From: Bacteroidaceae bacterium
GTDB taxonomy: Bacteria > Bacteroidota > Bacteroidia > Bacteroidales > Bacteroidaceae
DNA length: 53,452 nucleotides
Direction of reading: 5' to 3'
Assembly (NCBI GenBank): GCA_024398495.1
Contig: JAKSJA010000011.1
Span: 1 to 53,452, forward strand
This document shows, in pieces, positions 825-53,396 of this stretch. The position numbers and the translations under genes are program-made. Below the pieces are notes generated by a model that was given only the letters and a program-made list of their open reading frames with translations, was not told the origin of the DNA and searched no databases. Each line of letters opens with the position of its first letter. Position 1 is the first letter of the stretch.

Positions 825-1289
825 ATGTCACATATGTCACAAGAAGGCTACGATGAGCTCGTTGCCAAACTACACAAACTGGAAACCATTGACCGTCCTG
901 CTGCATCACAGGCGATAGCAGAGGCACGCGACAAGGGTGACCTTAGCGAGAATTACGAATATCATTCTGCCAAAGAGGCTCAGGCAAAACTGGAAGCGAG
1001 AATTAACAAGCTGAAGGCTGAACTGCTGGAGGCAAAGATTGTGGACAAGTCACGCCTGAAGGGTGATGTCGTGCAGATTCTGTCGAAGGTAGAGATGACA
1101 AACCTTAAGACGAATGCTCGTATGACCTATACCATCGTGAGCGAAAGTGAGGCAAACATCCGAGAGGGAAAGATCTCCATCAAGACTCCTATCGCACAGG
1201 GATTGCTGGACAAAAAGGTTGGCGACATTGCTACCATCCAGATTCCGCAGGGTACAATAGAACTGAGGATAGAATCGATAACATTATAA
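825..1289 (+). CDS. greA: transcription elongation factor GreA
   Basis: GreA binds RNA polymerase through its secondary channel and stimulates transcript cleavage in backtracked complexes. From the ATG at 825 the product is 154 residues, the normal family length. It has the N-terminal coiled-coil hairpin with the acidic tip (ARDKGDLSENYEY) and a C-terminal FKBP-like domain (VGDIATIQIPQG). The frame is open upstream to 771, but that segment overlaps the leader and looks non-coding, so the MSHMSQEGY start is preferred. An ATG at 834 is a second option. The HIT gene follows after 7 bases, so the two are probably cotranscribed. Confidence 0.95.
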   Translation: MSHMSQEGYDELVAKLHKLETIDRPAASQAIAEARDKGDLSENYEYHSAKEAQAKLEARINKLKAELLEAKIVDKSRLKGDVVQILSKVEMTNLKTNARMTYTIVSESEANIREGKISIKTPIAQGLLDKKVGDIATIQIPQGTIELRIESITL

Positions 1290-1296
1290 TATCATT

Positions 1297-42146: not shown

Positions 42147-43490
42147 TTAGTGGAATAATTTTTCTATTTTTCTTATCATCGTCTCGTAGCAGAATACCAC
42201 CACGCGGTCACCCGGCAATATCTGTGTGTTACCGTTTACCAGAGTTCCTACATTGTCGCGTACCAGTCCGCCAATGGTCATCTCTGGCGGGAGTTTGAGG
42301 TCTTTTACGAGTTTCTTCGTTATCTTTGCTCCTTCATGTACGATAAATTCGGCAACATCCGCATGGGCAGTCATCATGAACTTGACATTTCGCACTTCTC
42401 CCTGCAGCATCATCTGATAAATATGTCCTGCTGATATTGTGCGTTTGTTGACAAGAGTGCCGATGTCAAGGCTTTCCGCCATGCTTACATAATCGATGTT
42501 ATCCACCATCGCTACCGTCTTTCTCACACCGAAACGCTTGGCAGCCAGGCACGACAATATGTTTGTTTCCGTATTATTCGTCAGCGCGATGAAGGCCTGA
42601 GTATTCTTTATCCCTTCTTCGGACAATAGTGAAAGATCACGTCCGTCACCGTTGATGACGAGTACGTTTTCCCTGTCTATGAGTTCATTGAGTTTTTCAC
42701 AGCGGTGTTCATCCTTTTCGATTATCTTGACATTCATATTGTCGGGTATCAGTTTTGCCGTTCTCACGGCAGTCTTGCCTCCACCCATGATAATGACATT
42801 TTTCACATCCTCATATCCGTCTTTCCCGACAAGTTTTTTGATATAAGGTATTTTTTCTTTCACCGTCATGAAATATGCTATGTCACCCAGCATAAGTTGG
42901 TCACCGCCTTTCGGTATCAGTGTATGCCCTTTACGTTTGATGGCGACGATATGGAAAGGTTCCTCATGCCGTGCCAGTTCCATGAGAGTCTGGTTTAATA
43001 TCTCGCAGCCCTCACGCAATTTAATACCGAGCATGATGAGCTCGCCATTATATACATCCCATCTCAGACGTGCCCAACTGAATTTCAGACTTTTTACGAT
43101 GTCATTGGCAGCCAGCAGTTCCGGATAGATAAGGTCATCAATACCAATGTCCGTGAATACCTTTTGTACTTCCGGTGACATGTATTCCGGATTGTCTATC
43201 CTGGCAATGGTCTTCTTTGCTCCCAATGCCTTGGCAATGCTGCAACTGGCAGTGTTGACATTTTCATCCGCCTGTACAGCAACAAAGAGGTCTGCGTTTG
43301 CTATCCCCGCTTCCTTCAATGTCTGTATGCTTGTAGGCGAGGCGTTGACGGTCATCAGGTCAAGGTCATTCGACATCCCCGACAGCGTTTCTTCGTCCTC
43401 ATCAATGAGAACGATGTCCTCTCTGTCTCTGCTGAGCAGTTTGGACAGATGTATCCCTATACTGTTTGCACCGGAAATAATGATTTTCAT
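42147..43490 (-). CDS. trkA: Trk system potassium transport regulatory subunit TrkA
   Basis: 447 residues with two RCK (KTN plus TrkA-C) units. The first NAD(H)-binding fold opens [20 protein letters not shown]; the second is [17 protein letters not shown] (about residue 230), each followed by a TrkA-C domain with [13 protein letters not shown] and [13 protein letters not shown]. It is a cytoplasmic ring that gates TrkH in response to nucleotides. It overlaps the dxs stop by 4 bases (ATGA). Confidence 0.95.
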
Positions 43491-45355
43491 ATCAGTCTGT
43501 TTATTTGTTCGGCTATGGATTCTTCATCCAGACCTACAAGTTTCATCAGTTCACTTACACATCCGTGTTCCACAAATTCATCAGGCAGTCCCATACGCAC
43601 CACATGCGTTTCATACCCATTGTCCTGCAGCCATTCCGTTACGGCAGAGCCCATGCCGCCGTTTCTCACGCCGTTTTCCACCGTTATGATTGTCTTGTAT
43701 CTTTCTCCTATTTCCCGCAGCAACTCTTCGTCAAGCGGTTTTACAAAACGCATGTCATAATGTGCCACGTCAGGTATGGTCTGCAGTACCTTCCGTACCT
43801 TGTATCCTATCGGACCTATTGACAGCACGGCAGTCTTGTTGCCATCCCGCAGTTTTCTTCCTTTTCCCACAGGAATCTCCTCAAATGGGCATTGCCAGTC
43901 TAAAAGTTCTCCTTTCCCTCGTGGATAGCGTATCACGAAAGTACCCTTCCCCGGCAGTTGTGCCGTGTACATCATCTTCCGCAGTTCCGTCTCGTCCATC
44001 GGTGAGCAGATGGTGATGTTAGGTATCGGCCGCAGATAAGCCATGTCGAAAGCACCATGATGAGTCGCACCGTCTTCGCCCACGATGCCGGCTCTGTCAA
44101 GGCATATCACCACAGGCAGGTCAAGCATTGCCGCGTCGTGGATGATATTATCGTATGCACGCTGGGCAAAAGAACTGTATATGTTACAGAAAGGGATTAG
44201 CCCGTTTATCGCCATTCCACCGGAGAATGTCACCGCATGACCCTCTGCTATGCCTACATCAAAAGTCCTTTCCGGCATCTCCTTCATCAGGATGTTCATG
44301 CTGCATCCCGAAGGCATGGCAGGGGTGACGCCTATTATTTTTTCATTCTGTTGTGCCAGTTCAAGAAGCGTCCGTCCGAACACCTCTTGGTATTTCAGTG
44401 GCTGTTCAGTATTATTTTCCGTGATGCGTTCTCCCGTATCAGGGTCGAACATTCCGGGTGCATGGAAGATGGTCGGATTCTCCTCCGCCGGTTTGTATCC
44501 CTTGCCTTTCACGGTGTGAATATGAAGTATTTTCGGCCCCGTCATATCCTTTATCTCTTTCAGCACACGCACCATCTCGATGACGTTATGTCCGTCAATA
44601 GGACCGAAGTAGCGTATGTCCATGCCCTCAAAGATATTCTGCTGCTGCGACAGCAGCGACTTTATGGCATTGTTGAAACGTATTATGGATTTCTTCCTCT
44701 GCTCATCCAGCATACCGCGGTTATGCAGCCAGTTGGAAATCTTGAAACGTACCCTGTTGTAGTTTTTATTCGTGTTGAGATGCAGCAGATAGTCCTTCAT
44801 CCCCCCGACACTCCTGTCGATGCTCATGTTGTTGTCATTGAGGATGATGAGCATGTCGTTAGGATATTGTGATGCATTGTTGAGCCCCTCATACGCCAGA
44901 CCGCCGCTCATGGCACCGTCACCGATAATCGCAACGACGTGTTCCGGTTTCTCTTTCAGTTTCTTTGCCGCCACCGCCATGCCAAGTGCGGCAGAGATGG
45001 AGTTGCTGGCATGACCGCACACGAAGGTATCGTATTCGCTTTCCGCAGGAGTAGGAAACGGACGCAGTCCGCCGAACTTCCTGTTGGTGGAAAAAATCTT
45101 CCGTCTGCCAGTGAGAATCTTATGCCCGTAAGCCTGATGCCCCACGTCCCACACCAACTTGTCCTTTGGCGTGTCGTACACGTAGTGCAGAGCCACCGTC
45201 ATCTCCACCGTGCCCAGCGAAGAACCCAGATGCCCCGGATTGTTCGCCAGTTCCTCAATGAGAAACTGTCTCAACTCGTCGCACACCTGAGGTAATTGGT
45301 TCACGTTAAGCCTACGCAGGTCACATGGTATTTCTATCTTATCTAATAGTCTCAA
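43487..45355 (-). CDS. dxs: 1-deoxy-D-xylulose-5-phosphate synthase
   Basis: 622 residues. It makes DXP from pyruvate and glyceraldehyde-3-phosphate, the first step of MEP isoprenoid synthesis. The thiamine diphosphate site [17 protein letters not shown], the substrate-site histidines in [10 protein letters not shown] and [18 protein letters not shown], and [21 protein letters not shown] are all present. The operon dxs-trkA-trkH-EamA is tightly packed. Its promoter at 45384-45415 lies in the end of a palindromic element. Confidence 0.96.
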
Positions 45356-45383: not shown

Positions 45384-45415
45384 CAAAATTAGTGCAAATC
45401 AAGGACAATGCCAAA
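45384..45415 (-). promoter_or_regulatory. dxs operon promoter
   Basis: On the minus strand TTTG (45412-45415) and TAATTTTG (45384-45391) are 20 bases apart. The leader would be about 20 bases. The promoter coincides with the left end of the palindromic element at 45386-45532. Confidence 0.7.
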
Positions 45416-45532
45416 ATAAATTTTATTTATTTCTTTATTGTGTTGAAAAGTCGCGAAATGCATTTCAGGGATTTTTCAACACAATAAAAAAGGAAACATT
45501 GTTTCTGGCATTGTCTTGATGTAGCCTAATTT
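45386..45532. repeat. 147-bp palindromic (MITE-like) element upstream of dxs
   Basis: The ends are imperfect inverted repeats of about 26 bp (45386-45412 with 45507-45532), both running from AAATTAG to ACAATGCC. Inside is a perfect 16-bp inverted repeat (45434-45449 with 45473-45488), and at the centre the palindrome GAAATGCATTTC (45455-45466). All three layers share one axis near 45460. It has no coding capacity. Confidence 0.65.
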
Positions 45533-45551
45533 CAACGAAGTTAAAGTTAGT

Positions 45552-45576
45552 GCATTGTCTTGATGTAGCCTAATTT
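45552..45576. repeat. extra copy of the right end of the palindromic element
   Basis: An exact 25-bp direct repeat of 45508-45532, 44 bases further right. A 13-bp copy of the left end (TTAGTGCAAATCA, 45389-45401) recurs at 45693-45705. Confidence 0.8.
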
Positions 45577-45743
45577 AAGGATGTTCATCCTTTTCTTCCT
45601 CCTCAATTCGGCAAACTATAAACGAGTTTATCTCTGCTCTCATTTCGTCGTCAGTTCACCGCAGTCAAAATTACAACAAACCGCAGATAAAGTTAGTGCA
45701 AATCATTTCCCACCCTGTTCCTCACTCCACCGCAAGATATGGT
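45577..45743. other. non-coding spacer
   Basis: Pyrimidine-rich DNA with the 13-bp element at 45693-45705 but no credible gene. A 65-codon frame (45581-45778) is low-complexity and runs into the repeat array, so it is not called. Confidence 0.5.
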
Positions 45744-46271
45744 CAATTATTTACGACGAGGTGTACAATTCTTCATGATGTTATGACCTGTCATTTGTGA
45801 TGCGTCGCCCTATTCTATGTGATGCGCGTTGGTGTCTGACGTGGAGTTCGCTGTCTCCTTTTTTGTACTTCGTTGTGTGTTGATGTGAAGTTCGGTGTGT
45901 AGGTGCTAGCAGTTACGGCCGTAGGTGCTAGGTCTTACGCTCGTAGGTGCTAGGTCTTATGCCCGTAACTGCTAGCACCTACACACCGCTCGTCACAAAG
46001 GGTGACACCGCTCGTGCGAAAGGAGGGCAACGCTCGTCACAAAGGAGGACAACGAACTTTATGTCAACAAGGTCATAACGTCATAAATGATAGGCCACAG
46101 CTTCAGGTATAATTGCTTATAACTTCAAGTATGGCAGGCCACATCTTCAAGTAAGGTAGACCGTAAGATGAGGAATGGTGTTTTGTAAGATGCGGTCTGG
46201 TAGGTAGTAAGATAGAGTACGTTGTTTTGCAAGGTAAGGTATGGATTGATGTAAGATTGAATCCAGGTACG
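45744..46271. repeat. array of about 24 consecutive 22-bp units in exact register
   Basis: Cutting the sequence every 22 bases from 45744 gives related neighbours with no slip over 528 bp. Examples: TGTGATGCG at 45796 and 45818; units ending CG(T/C/G)TG at 45831, 45853, 45875 and 45897; AGGTGCTAG at 45901, 45923 and 45945; CGCTCGT three times from 45987; CTTCA at 46101, 46123 and 46145; G(T/C)AAG(A/G)T at 46163, 46185, 46207, 46229 and 46251. Families change orientation along the array. The period is not a multiple of three and no frame stays open, so it is non-coding. Confidence 0.75.
45893..45988. repeat. 26-bp perfect inverted repeat inside the 22-bp array
   Basis: Arms 45893-45918 and 45963-45988 are exact reverse complements. 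The 44-base loop holds two near-identical 22-bp units (45920-45941 and 45942-45963). Weaker complementarity continues outward to about 45766 and 46095, making an imperfect palindrome of roughly 330 bp. Confidence 0.85.
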
Positions 46272-46290
46272 ACAGAGTTAAGTAAGATAC

Positions 46291-46361
46291 AAAAAGAAAT
46301 GCTTAAACCGTAGATACCTCCAATAAAGAAGGTACTCCAGCTACTGTCATTCAAGCATTTC
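46291..46361 (-). ncRNA. candidate small RNA (about 70 nt) reading toward the 22-bp array
   Basis: On the minus strand the -7 box TACCTTTG (46367-46374, with a TTG 18 bases further up) is followed by a nested stem. The outer pair is GAAATGCTT/AAGCATTTC (46353-46361 with 46296-46304), the next CTAC/GTAG (46341-46344 with 46310-46313), and the inner AGGTA/TACCT (46330-46334 with 46315-46319). Five Ts follow the outer stem. This is a compact promoter-structured RNA-terminator unit. It could be a small RNA or a terminated leader of a longer transcript through the array. Confidence 0.5.
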
Positions 46362-46599: not shown

Positions 46600-46854
46600 A
46601 TGGTAGAGAAACTCGGAAACAAGTCTATTTTCGAAAAGTGTATCAACATTCGTACATCCAACTTCCGCTTTGGGGACAAGATGAAGTATTACAATGACTA
46701 TCCAACATCTAAAGGTGATGGCAAGAAAGCTACCTACGTTGAGGAGTTGAAGCAGTTGTCAAAGACCAATACTGACTTTACCGAAGCAGACATCAAGGAA
46801 AGAACTAACACCATCCTCGAAGCTTTTGGAATGTTCCAGTCTAGCAAAGTGTGA
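46600..46854 (+). pseudogene. C-terminal remnant of a DUF262/DUF1524 (GmrSD-like) restriction enzyme
   Basis: 84 codons. The sequence LGNKSIFEKCINIRTSNFRFGDKMKYY followed by FTEADIKERTNTILEAF resembles the last 80 residues of DUF1524 domains in type IV, GmrSD-like enzymes that restrict modified phage DNA. The whole DUF262 ParB-like nuclease part and the HNH core are missing. A stop codon lies three codons before the ATG. A TAACTTCG box at 46449-46456 could still drive it, so a short expressed protein is not excluded. The family call is from memory of motif shape. Confidence 0.5.
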
Positions 46855-50856: not shown

Positions 50857-53301
50857 ATGAAAAAACTTATACTCATTGATGCCTATGCTATGATATACAG
50901 GGCTTATTATGCTTTTATAAAAAGTCCGAGGATAAACAGTAAGGGTATCAACACGTCTGCTATATTTGGTTTTGTAAATACTCTTGTAGATGTGATAAAT
51001 AAAGAAAATCCCGACTATCTTGGTGTGGCATTTGACCCTAAAGGAGGAAGTTTCCGTACACAGTTGGACGAGAACTATAAAGCACAGCGTGAGAAGACTC
51101 CGGAAGACATCAGCATAGCCGTACCGATAATAAAAGACATCCTCAAAGCATTCAACATACCTATCTTTGAGGTTGTCGGTTATGAAGCCGACGACGTGAT
51201 AGGTACTTTGGCATTGCAGGCTTCCTTACATGACGATTTGGAAACATTCATGATGACTCTTGACAAAGATTATGGTCAGTTGGTACGTGATAATGTCAGA
51301 ATGCTTCGTCCAAAACATTTGGGGACAGGTTTTGACAAGTTGGGACCAAAAGAGATTTGCGAAAAGCATGGCATCGACACTCCTCTGCAAGTTATAGACC
51401 TTCTCGGTCTTATGGGAGACGCTTCAGATAATGTTCCGGGATGTCCGGGTGTAGGTCCTAAGACGGCAGCACAACTGATAAGAGATTATGGTAGCATTGA
51501 GGGACTATTGGAGCATTCCAGCGAACTGAAAGGAACATTGAAAGATAAGGTGGAAAGCAATGCCGACAGCATACGTCTGTCGAAAGAACTTGTCACCATA
51601 GTCACGGATGTTCCTGTGACTCTTAATCTTGATGAACTTAAATATGTAGAACCTAATAATGATGAGGTGCAGAGGTTGTTCCATGAGCTGGAGTTTCGGG
51701 GGTTGACGGAAAGAGTTCTCAAGATAAATAATACTGAGGCAAGTCTGTTCTCACAGGCTGCTCCTCAACCTGTCAGACGCCAAAAACCTCAGGATAGTGG
51801 TGAGTTGGATTTGTTCTCTTCTCCCGAAGATAATGTTGTAAACAATACCCAACCAAACGAGGCTACGAAATATGGCAATCGTATCGGTGATACTCTTGTG
51901 GGGTACGATTTGAAAAAAGCCATCCTTGAAGAATGGAAGAAGGGTAATGAACTTGAAGGGCCATTCTTCGATATTATGTTGGCTCGTTATCTGCTTCATC
52001 CGGATATCCGCATATATGACGATGGCAACTATAGTGCGGAAATCAAGGCAGAGCTTGAAGAAGACCTTAAACGTGATGGTCTCTACAGATTGTTCACAAA
52101 GGTAGAGATGCCTCTTATGGTTGTCCTTGCACGTATGGAACGCAATGGTGTTCTCATTGATAAAAACTCTTTACGTGAGACATCAAAAGAGTTTACATTG
52201 AAAATCAATGAGATAGAAAAAGACATATACCGTTTGGCAGGGATGCAATTTAATATCTCATCGCCAAAGCAGGTGGGAGAAGTCCTGTTTGACAACTTAA
52301 AACTCTCCCGACATGCCAAGAAAACGAAAAGTGGGCATTATGTCACATCGGAAGAGGTGTTGCAGGAATTGAAAGAACATGAGATAGTGGCACGTATCCT
52401 TGATTATCGCGGATACAAAAAACTCCTTTCTACCTACATAGATGCTCTACCGAAGATGACCGATGAAAACGGTTATCTTCATACCTCATTCAATCAGGCA
52501 GTGACGGTAACAGGCCGTCTGTCATCGAGTACTCCGAATTTGCAGAATATCCCTATCCGTGATGAGAATGGCAAGGAGGTGCGCAAGGCTTTCATCCCTG
52601 ATAAGAATTGTATGTTTTTCGGTGCCGACTATTCGCAGATAGAGTTGCGTATAATGGCTCATCTCAGTGGTGATAAAAATATGATTGATGCCTTTAACAG
52701 TGGGCAGGACATTCATGCTGCCACTGCTGCAAAGGTATTCAAGAAGCCGATAGAAGAAGTCACTCCGGATGAACGTAGAAAGGCAAAGGTGGCAAACTTC
52801 GGTATTATCTATGGAATCTCGACATTTGGTCTTGCAGAACGTATGCAGGTAAGCCGTACGGAGGCAAAGGCATTGATAGATGAATACTTCCAGACATATC
52901 CGGACGTGCAGGCATATATGGAGAAATCGAAAGATATGGTACGTGAAAAAGGCTATGCTGAAACATTATTCGGCAGACGCTGTTATCTGCCTGACATCAA
53001 TTCCCAGAACTCAGTAGTTCGTGGGTATGCAGAACGTAATGCCATCAATGCTCCGATACAGGGATCTGCTGCTGACATCATCAAGATTGCAATGGTAAAT
53101 ATAGACCGTAGGATGCAGTCAGCAAAGATGAAGTCAAAGATGATTTTGCAGGTACATGATGAACTTGACTTTACTGTCGTTCCGGGAGAAGAAGAAACCC
53201 TTGAAAAACTTGTCATCGAAGAGATGCAGAATGTTGTAAAACTCAAGGTACCTCTCATTGCAGATGCAGGATGGGGATTGAATTGGCTGGAAGCACATTG
53301 A
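50857..53301 (+). CDS. polA: DNA polymerase I with a shortened 3'-5' exonuclease region
   Basis: 814 residues; Bacteroidota PolA is usually about 910-950. Residues 1-290 are the 5' nuclease (LILIDAYAMIYRAYYAF, EADDVIGTL, LMGDASDNVPG). Residues of about 415-814 are the polymerase with motif A DYSQIELRIMAHLSG, motif B RRKAKVANFGIIYG and motif C QVHDELDF. Between them only a fragment of the proofreading domain remains (about 336-407: GNRIGDTLVGYDLKKAI, FFDIMLARYLLHPD). The DTET exo I motif and the tyrosine-containing exo III motif are absent, so proofreading is predicted lost while repair synthesis and nick translation stay. Confidence 0.94.
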   Translation: MKKLILIDAYAMIYRAYYAFIKSPRINSKGINTSAIFGFVNTLVDVINKENPDYLGVAFDPKGGSFRTQLDENYKAQREKTPEDISIAVPIIKDILKAFNIPIFEVVGYEADDVIGTLALQASLHDDLETFMMTLDKDYGQLVRDNVRMLRPKHLGTGFDKLGPKEICEKHGIDTPLQVIDLLGLMGDASDNVPGCPGVGPKTAAQLIRDYGSIEGLLEHSSELKGTLKDKVESNADSIRLSKELVTIVTDVPVTLNLDELKYVEPNNDEVQRLFHELEFRGLTERVLKINNTEASLFSQAAPQPVRRQKPQDSGELDLFSSPEDNVVNNTQPNEATKYGNRIGDTLVGYDLKKAILEEWKKGNELEGPFFDIMLARYLLHPDIRIYDDGNYSAEIKAELEEDLKRDGLYRLFTKVEMPLMVVLARMERNGVLIDKNSLRETSKEFTLKINEIEKDIYRLAGMQFNISSPKQVGEVLFDNLKLSRHAKKTKSGHYVTSEEVLQELKEHEIVARILDYRGYKKLLSTYIDALPKMTDENGYLHTSFNQAVTVTGRLSSSTPNLQNIPIRDENGKEVRKAFIPDKNCMFFGADYSQIELRIMAHLSGDKNMIDAFNSGQDIHAATAAKVFKKPIEEVTPDERRKAKVANFGIIYGISTFGLAERMQVSRTEAKALIDEYFQTYPDVQAYMEKSKDMVREKGYAETLFGRRCYLPDINSQNSVVRGYAERNAINAPIQGSAADIIKIAMVNIDRRMQSAKMKSKMILQVHDELDFTVVPGEEETLEKLVIEEMQNVVKLKVPLIADAGWGLNWLEAH

Positions 53302-53323: not shown

Positions 53324-53396
53324 ACGATACGCTTCGCTACGATACGCTTCGCTACGATACGCTGACGCTACGATAACGATAACAATAACAATAAAA
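53324..53396. repeat. 15-bp tandem repeat followed by 6-bp repeats after polA
   Basis: ACGATACGCTTCGCT occurs twice exactly (53324-53338, 53339-53353) and once as a 16-bp variant (53354-53369), then ACGATA/ACAATA units. It is preceded by GGTCAACG at 53319-53326, as at the other repeat sites. Confidence 0.85.

Follow-up and report, generated by a model that had tools for sequence, protein, structure and literature searches.

The intergenic stretch from 45722 to 46282 of the window (the whole 53,452-nucleotide stretch of DNA that was analysed) is an array of about 25 units in a strict 22-bp phase, copies of which are dispersed in the genome and keep their register although their sequences have diverged. 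The explanation preferred here, in which we place about as much trust as doubt, is that the array is a tandem row of sites for a putative dimeric protein, two helical turns apart, carried on a dispersed BrickBuilt-like repeat. It would then be one copy of a non-autonomous, intergenic repeat element in which degenerate 22-bp units form two facing wings around a palindromic core. Each unit would be a candidate double-stranded DNA-binding site for the dimer, and as neighbouring sites are two helical turns apart, bound dimers would share nearly the same face of the DNA, where they could bind cooperatively, with strong sites in the core and weaker in-register sites in the wings. Copies would spread within a species while their sequence turns over, possibly with homogenisation of the units; insertions and deletions that break the register would be removed, and mostly whole 22-bp units would be gained or lost. 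The array might serve the cell in a structural or insulating way, or might simply be selfish. Helical phasing for a protein, as proposed in the initial annotation, is the reading that fits best.

Architecture of the array

The exact 22-bp phasing that had been described for 45744-46271 is real. Cuts every 22 bp yield 24 units with the reported motifs in place, and identity at lag 22 is 0.557 against a mean of 0.256 for dinucleotide-shuffled sequence (z 15.6; 0 of 1000 shuffles as high). Echoes of this lag occur at lag 44 (0.490) and lag 66 (0.394), identity at lags 21 and 23 lies below the shuffle mean, and lag 22 is kept in all four sub-blocks tested (z 5.1-10.9), with neighbouring units differing at about 45% of their positions. 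The outer limits of the array, which enclose 45744-46271, follow from a lag-22 identity of at least 0.5 in 110-bp windows. As only mechanical ORFs cross the array it looks non-coding, in line with the first description, and a coding repeat was rejected. CRISPR was rejected as well, again in agreement with that description, the units being contiguous, related to each other and without spacers. Promoter predictions (5 found versus 3.5 expected) and terminator predictions (0 versus 1.0 expected) were also obtained, and phage and plasmid records gave no match to the array.

A strong inverted symmetry, which is absent from the earlier description, is centred at 45940.5, where 113 of 197 opposed positions are complementary; in a second element of this kind (C12) these are 159 of 260. 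The centre is occupied by a palindromic core (45884..45997), an inverted repeat with 56-nt arms that are 80% complementary and 2 nt apart. In an alignment of six copies (five from the genome that contains the window, hereafter the own genome, and one from its sister genome) the core has 5 variable columns out of 114 and the remainder 85 out of 192, without gap. Units beginning with GTAGGTGCTAG.... stand within the core as direct repeats at 45899, 45921 and 45943, spaced by 22 and 22 bp, together with an inverted copy at 45964 (span 45899..45982). TRF, which found just two pieces of the array, reports one of them here (45899-45975) and the other (45983-46051) at three CGCTCGT units right of the core (45984..46054), which are likewise direct repeats spaced by 22 and 22 bp.

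Further outward, four units of the left wing (45734..45821) match the degenerate consensus of other arrays on the plus strand. With a profile from five other arrays they score 3.6, 4.9, 8.9 and -0.2 versus -13.3 +/- 6.0 for random 22-mers, which is modest evidence, and the best plus-strand phase over the whole array barely leads the second one (-7.8 versus -8.5). The nine units of the right wing (46060..46257) match the consensus on the minus strand, scoring -0.3 to 20.7 against the same random background, and here the phase is clear (-1.5 versus -8.0 for the second). Since the left outer units match on the plus strand and the right wing on the minus strand, the two wings point towards one another. 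Most of the core gives no match to this consensus.

A consensus close to CATGAAGATACGACCAACCATA is common to nine arrays of the own and sister genomes that were aligned by phase and strand alone (leave-one-out total 49.2 versus 7.7-15.0 in 12 column-permuted controls). These nine arrays are not independent, and because some of them are related by detectable homology, part of the consensus reflects descent. The unit sequence in the own genome is degenerate, but not free. The annotation of a fixed spacing with free sequence was therefore right in one part: spacing is kept better than sequence, both in diverged copies and in species with other units. Within the genome the sequence is not free, as a recurring element and a degenerate wing consensus exist. 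The consensus of the own genome has no clear palindrome, and a dyad phase is weak in its arrays (window: best phase 0.33 versus mean 0.24) and clear in three arrays of G016, a complete genome of the same genus (0.51-0.62 versus 0.25-0.27). The lack of a clear palindrome in the own-genome consensus and the mostly unmatched core count against the preferred explanation.

The array is located between divergent ORFs. Its left neighbour is dxs (1-deoxy-D-xylulose-5-phosphate synthase; 43487..45355, minus strand; PF13292, E 4.7e-109), and its right neighbour is an 84-aa ORF without Pfam match (46600..46854, plus strand). An inverted repeat, AGAAATGCTT...AAGCATTTCT, was seen by eye at 46294-46361, immediately right of the array. 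Near the contig end, a 15-bp tandem repeat (53324-53375) stands directly 3′ of an 814-aa ORF that ends at 53301 and that we take to be polA-like.

Dispersed copies and the keeping of the register

The own genome, a 1.43-Mb draft of 62.7% completeness, contains six further long copies of the array, which are 74-90% identical to it. Five of them match at equal length (C23, 463 bp, 83%; C1, 334 bp, 88%; C17, 338 bp, 86%; C5, 399 bp, 81%; C34, 208 bp reaching a contig end, 90%), and the sixth (C4, 560 bp versus 516, 74%) differs in length by 44 bp, which is 2 x 22. The unit order of the element is preserved at these other loci. One copy (89% over 366 bp) was found in the sister genome, Candidatus Equicola stercoris (G150). 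An assembly artefact, which the initial annotation had still allowed for, is unlikely as source of the register, as the same register is found in copies at other loci as well as in a different assembly. When the 528-bp array was used as query against 150 genus genomes, the own genome was the sole match; the core as query matched three of 398 genus genomes, namely the own genome, G300, which is taken as the same genome as G150 because its contig coordinates agree, and one with a weak 27-bp match. The genus itself is probably Prevotella as GTDB defines it. The nearest named carrier besides the own genome is therefore Candidatus Equicola stercoris (NCBI family Bacteroidaceae). The exact core pattern occurs in 14 genome-contig stretches. 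A single stretch among them is matched three times and is a real copy; the remaining 13 have one match each and were, like 11 viral stretches, taken as chance.

Among 11 own-genome arrays (one gap counted twice; heuristic gene calls) six lie between divergent, three between co-directional and two between convergent genes; five more arrays at stretch edges stand outside this count. Seven of 13 inspected contig ends in the own genome fall in arrays, several of these ends having been fetched because of a match. A contig of the sister genome (G150:C57) has about 6.5 kb extra at a point matching window positions 1281-1293, and a 63-bp piece at the edge of this insert matches window positions 46121-46183 (97%).

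How well the register is kept was assessed on 115 array pairs with 4565 substitutions (pairs of more than 97% identity, shorter than 100 bp or from L016 excluded). Net displacement is 0 in 75 pairs and 22, 44 or 66 bp in 18, so that 93 of 115 are in register, and 21 of the 22 off-register pairs miss a multiple of 22 by 1-2 bp. The control was another dispersed repeat, MITE-like and distinct from the array, at 45384-45690; it has many copies in the sister genome and, by eye, the terminal inverted repeats ATCAAGGACAATGCCA / TGGCATTGTCTTGAT. Its net displacement is 0 in 5 of 18 distinct matches (those above 99.5% identity or shorter than 100 bp excluded), and the difference to the arrays is significant by Fisher's test at p ~1e-5 by pairs and 2e-6 by events per substitution, the pairs not being independent. 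Counted raw, gap openings come to 137 per 4565 substitutions in the arrays, where many compensate each other, and to 67 per 437 in the control repeat. For orthologous DNA of the own and sister genomes the corresponding values are 55 per 620 (intergenic) and 39 per 6273 (coding).

These numbers bear on a functionless minisatellite-type element, whose 22-bp period would go back to one fixation in an ancestor and be merely inherited, as arrays change in length by whole units, while sequences drift and recombination homogenises them. This alternative appears doubtful, if far from negligible. Units that differ at about 45% of their positions should under such drift show many small indels, yet off-register displacements amount to 22 per 4565 substitutions versus the 55 gap openings per 620 in orthologous intergenic DNA, two measures that differ in kind. 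The decay of similarity along the array from lag 22 over lag 44 to lag 66 is, on the other hand, what would be seen after local duplication, and a few central bases of the G016 units resemble the next unit beyond chance (z up to 4.7).

A comparison of orthologous loci in the own and sister genomes also speaks in part for the minisatellite-type history. The arrays diverge more than their flanks at two loci, C5 versus G150 C93 (about 72-79% in the array, 90-91% in the flanks) and C34 versus G150 C2 (80% versus 97%), and at one gene end the two genomes seem by eye to bear arrays of different families. Another orthologous array locus is 97% identical throughout, and in blocks of at least 85% identity divergence is 0.072 in arrays versus 0.076 in intergenic DNA. 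As faster divergence is seen at two loci and not at others, fast turnover is a tendency at some loci and not a rule. Well-aligned orthologous array columns contain 4 gaps per 77 substitutions (two of 1 bp and two of 22 bp), which are too few to decide and give no clear gap deficit, again as the minisatellite-type history would have it. No clean empty site was obtained; next to dxs, the right flank in the sister genome is a different one and contains no array. Against the preferred explanation, that of phased dimer sites, it counts that orthologous arrays which can be aligned show no greater divergence and no clear shortage of gaps, and the same holds for the off-register pairs, for the 23-bp step that some arrays contain and for the single sites of G016 described below.

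The 22-bp period in other genomes

All lags from 10 to 60 were surveyed in sampled stretches of own, sister, genus and order genomes. Lag-22 arrays number 16 in 453 kb of the own genome and 17 in 332 kb of the sister genome, both samples being partly chosen by known hits (the own-genome stretches were contigs already known to carry copies, those of the sister genome partly so). The evenly spaced stretches of G016 contain 26 in 391.5 kb, with 4 arrays at the next lag (44 aside), which by extrapolation gives about 200 arrays in this genome. G010 has 5 in 140 kb and one more in a further 40 kb, G003 has 4 in 80 kb, and G001, G004, G006, G007 and G015 have one each. The last three of these ten additional genomes of the genus, G009, G013 and G019, gave no lag-22 array in the sampled stretches, and this absence has to be counted against the preferred explanation as well. 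When these ten genomes are pooled, lag 22 accounts for 14 arrays, lag 21 for 10 and lag 14 for 9. Thirteen other genomes of the order (one of them of the same family) have 2 lag-22 arrays in 359 kb and up to 3 at other lags, and block-shuffled sequence gave zero arrays at every lag. Nine fetched genus-genome stretches (340-4327 bp, four masked) are not part of this census; three of the nine stretches outside the census (11 kb in total) had no lag-22 array. The solid cases of period 22 are the own genome (G000), G150, G016, G010 and G003, single arrays per genome being weak evidence.

Arrays of the same period with a different sequence, which the initial annotation had suggested looking for in related genomes, do exist in G016, G010, G003 and G346. 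The unit of G016 consists of GTAATTTGnnnCAAATTAC, a 19-bp palindrome, plus 3 bp, and that of G010 of GTAAAAG...CTTTTAC plus 3 bp. Two arrays of G003 have, by eye, TAGATACGTATCTA-like units, and a palindrome search in this genome returned a weak motif unlike the by-eye unit. A G016 array as query matched six of 398 genus genomes, G016 itself and five weakly. One of the latter, G346, whose stretches were picked by match, has four-unit arrays of a G016-like palindrome at both fetched places. The repeat period may differ by lineage. In 20 kb of G168, which belongs to another family of the order, two arrays of 23-bp period were noticed (L168, from 8166).

The fine structure of the period is seen best in G016, where 151 palindromic sites score at least 9 in 400 kb. 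Gaps between neighbouring sites, considered up to 70 bp, are exactly 22 bp in 83 of 90 cases. Single sites make up 29 of 61 site clusters, which is close to the chance rate, since with this profile 400 kb of the own genome yield 31 sites and 361 kb of the order yield 26. Four units is the size of 19 of the 32 clusters that have at least two sites, and of 20 of 35 contiguous clusters once the Y1 loci are added. Half-sites switch direction every 11 bp, and scores past the four units fall gradually, still in register. That palindromic units most often come in fours is not what neutral decay of a minisatellite would lead one to expect. Homology to the flank of another array was found for 30 of 66 flanks (33 arrays), so that many G016 arrays are part of larger repeats. 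The 26 G016 arrays stand in convergent (11), co-directional (13) and divergent (2) context by heuristic gene calls, the gaps longer than 150 bp being 20 convergent, 48 co-directional and 30 divergent. This context differs from that in the own genome, which counts against phased dimer sites, and such inconsistency fits the minisatellite-type history.

In a more far-reaching version of the dimer-site explanation, binding arrays would form a lattice across the whole chromosome in this gut Bacteroidales lineage and would all serve a single DNA-binding protein that evolves fast. Each species would have exchanged the recognition sequence at a great number of loci but retained the step of 22 bp, with half-sites inverted every 11 bp, about four dimers in the core and weaker wings, similar to centromere-like co-evolution, in which the geometry stays and the sequence changes. 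We regard this as a tentative and rather unlikely idea.

Folding, and comparison with known repeat systems

The initial annotation had also suggested RNA duplexes with 11 bp per turn. Indeed, the array folds well as RNA (z -6.6 on the plus and -9.2 on the minus strand; -11.7 for the C12 element), and folding as well as the complementarity around the centre at 45940.5 and in the C12 element would suit an RNA or single-stranded DNA hairpin in which the inverted wings pair into a long stem with 22 bp, i.e., two A-form turns, per repeat. Such a hairpin is nonetheless improbable, as the pairs do not covary. The six aligned copies have 69.6% paired cells versus 70.1% in shuffled alignments, hence no compensatory excess, and 5 pairs changed on both sides versus 5.9. 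Summed over 150 G016 units, complementarity is 4.69 versus 4.75 expected within units and 3.88 versus 3.88 between units; one of eight inner pairs, the outermost, is in excess (5 of 2000 permutations as high). Rfam has no family matching over the array at gathering score either. A structured RNA was therefore rejected in spite of the strong folding, and without covariation foldability is best seen as a by-product of the inverted wings and the palindromic units. A lack of summed covariation between the halves of a dyad is expected for protein sites rather than for hairpins, which favours the reading as protein sites. Non-functional decay would lack covariation as well, so this test opposes pairing without proving protein binding.

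Palindromic units in intergenic DNA bring to mind REP/BIME repeats, which excerpts of the literature describe as short palindromes that are intergenic, often downstream of genes, and species-specific (PMC3733652). The arrays resemble them, as far as these excerpts go, in being intergenic, often downstream of genes, species-specific and, in G016, numerous and composed of short palindromes. Mobilisation of a REP/BIME-type repeat by an IS200-like (Y1, possibly RAYT) transposase would agree with arrays in five of the six 1.5-kb flanks that border the three Y1_Tnp matches of G016, one of which has an in-frame stop, and with the placement of G016 arrays, which is similar to that of REPs in the excerpted source (PMC3733652). 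However, the Y1 islands of G016 have palindromes of their own, different from those of the arrays, and 11 G016 arrays occur amid 20 convergent gaps longer than 150 bp. As arrays are common in such gaps, the flanking of Y1 genes may be positional, and both points weaken the case for RAYT mobilisation. The fetched flanks of the Y1 genes in the own genome, G006 and G010 contain no lag-22 array, that of the own genome ending at a contig end. The Y1 protein of the own genome is IS200-like, passing the IS200 cut-off and failing that of RAYT, and the G016 Y1 fails both. REP spacing is moreover variable according to the same excerpts (PMC3733652), unlike the fixed 22 bp of the arrays, which also differ in having no stem covariation and no dependable RAYT link. 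The GTAG tag (REP/BIME palindromes carry GTAG or CGTC) begins the core units and is absent from the listed wing units. Taken together, mobilisation of this type appears very improbable. The three Y1 islands of G016 (L192, L195 and L196) include tandem 68-bp repeats, in L192, and the REP-like palindromes AACTCGGTACGAGTT and AACTGCTACGCAGTT.

Iterons of plasmid origins are tandem protein-binding sites about two helical turns apart as well. They are near-identical and confined to one origin beside a rep gene. Unlike iterons, the arrays are dispersed over many intergenic regions and diverged, and they have no plasmid match.

The array belongs to no named family, the nearest one being BrickBuilt, a MITE/minisatellite of Porphyromonas gingivalis. 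In the excerpts of its description (PMC4596501), BrickBuilt comprises dispersed intergenic elements of 84-991 nt whose imperfect units follow each other head to tail with no spacers in between, and which have a leader, a tail and predicted long stem-loops. Its unit is 23 nt long, an element may contain as much as 11% mismatches and 6% indels, and its terminal inverted repeats are IS5-like (PMC4596501). The same excerpts place it just in P. gingivalis and the near relative P. gulae and mention 22-nt repeats reported earlier in P. gingivalis strain W83 (PMC4596501). As far as these excerpts allow a comparison, the array shares with BrickBuilt the occurrence in Bacteroidales, dispersed intergenic copies, imperfect tandem units and a predicted long stem-loop. 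It differs in its period, which is 22 and not 23 (lag 23 lies below the shuffle mean), in units that are far more diverged within the element, in wings opposed around a core, and in a period that recurs in several species with different units. The IS5-like terminal inverted repeat, GAGACCTTTGCA, has 8 matches in the window with at most 2 mismatches (4.6 expected), none of them between 39185 and 49816. Short end segments are shared among other array families of the own genome, and the family of the window shares little past its ends (by eye).

The titles listed as matches in the open-licence PMC literature include none that describes 22-bp arrays from Prevotella or its relatives. As far as this literature was searched, two features are new: a period that persists in species whose units differ, and the layout of a core with wings. 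To our knowledge, nucleoid organisation in Bacteroidales has been little studied; if the explanation by phased dimer sites is true, this order would gain a candidate for a chromosome-wide architectural or partition-like system, and if the arrays are merely a selfish repeat, they may at least account for the points at which drafts of this lineage break. The usual grouping of dispersed repeats in bacteria is by sequence. What is constant here is a length, 22 bp, across species with differing units, and such elements can therefore be found by autocorrelation and predict a protein with spacing-dependent binding.
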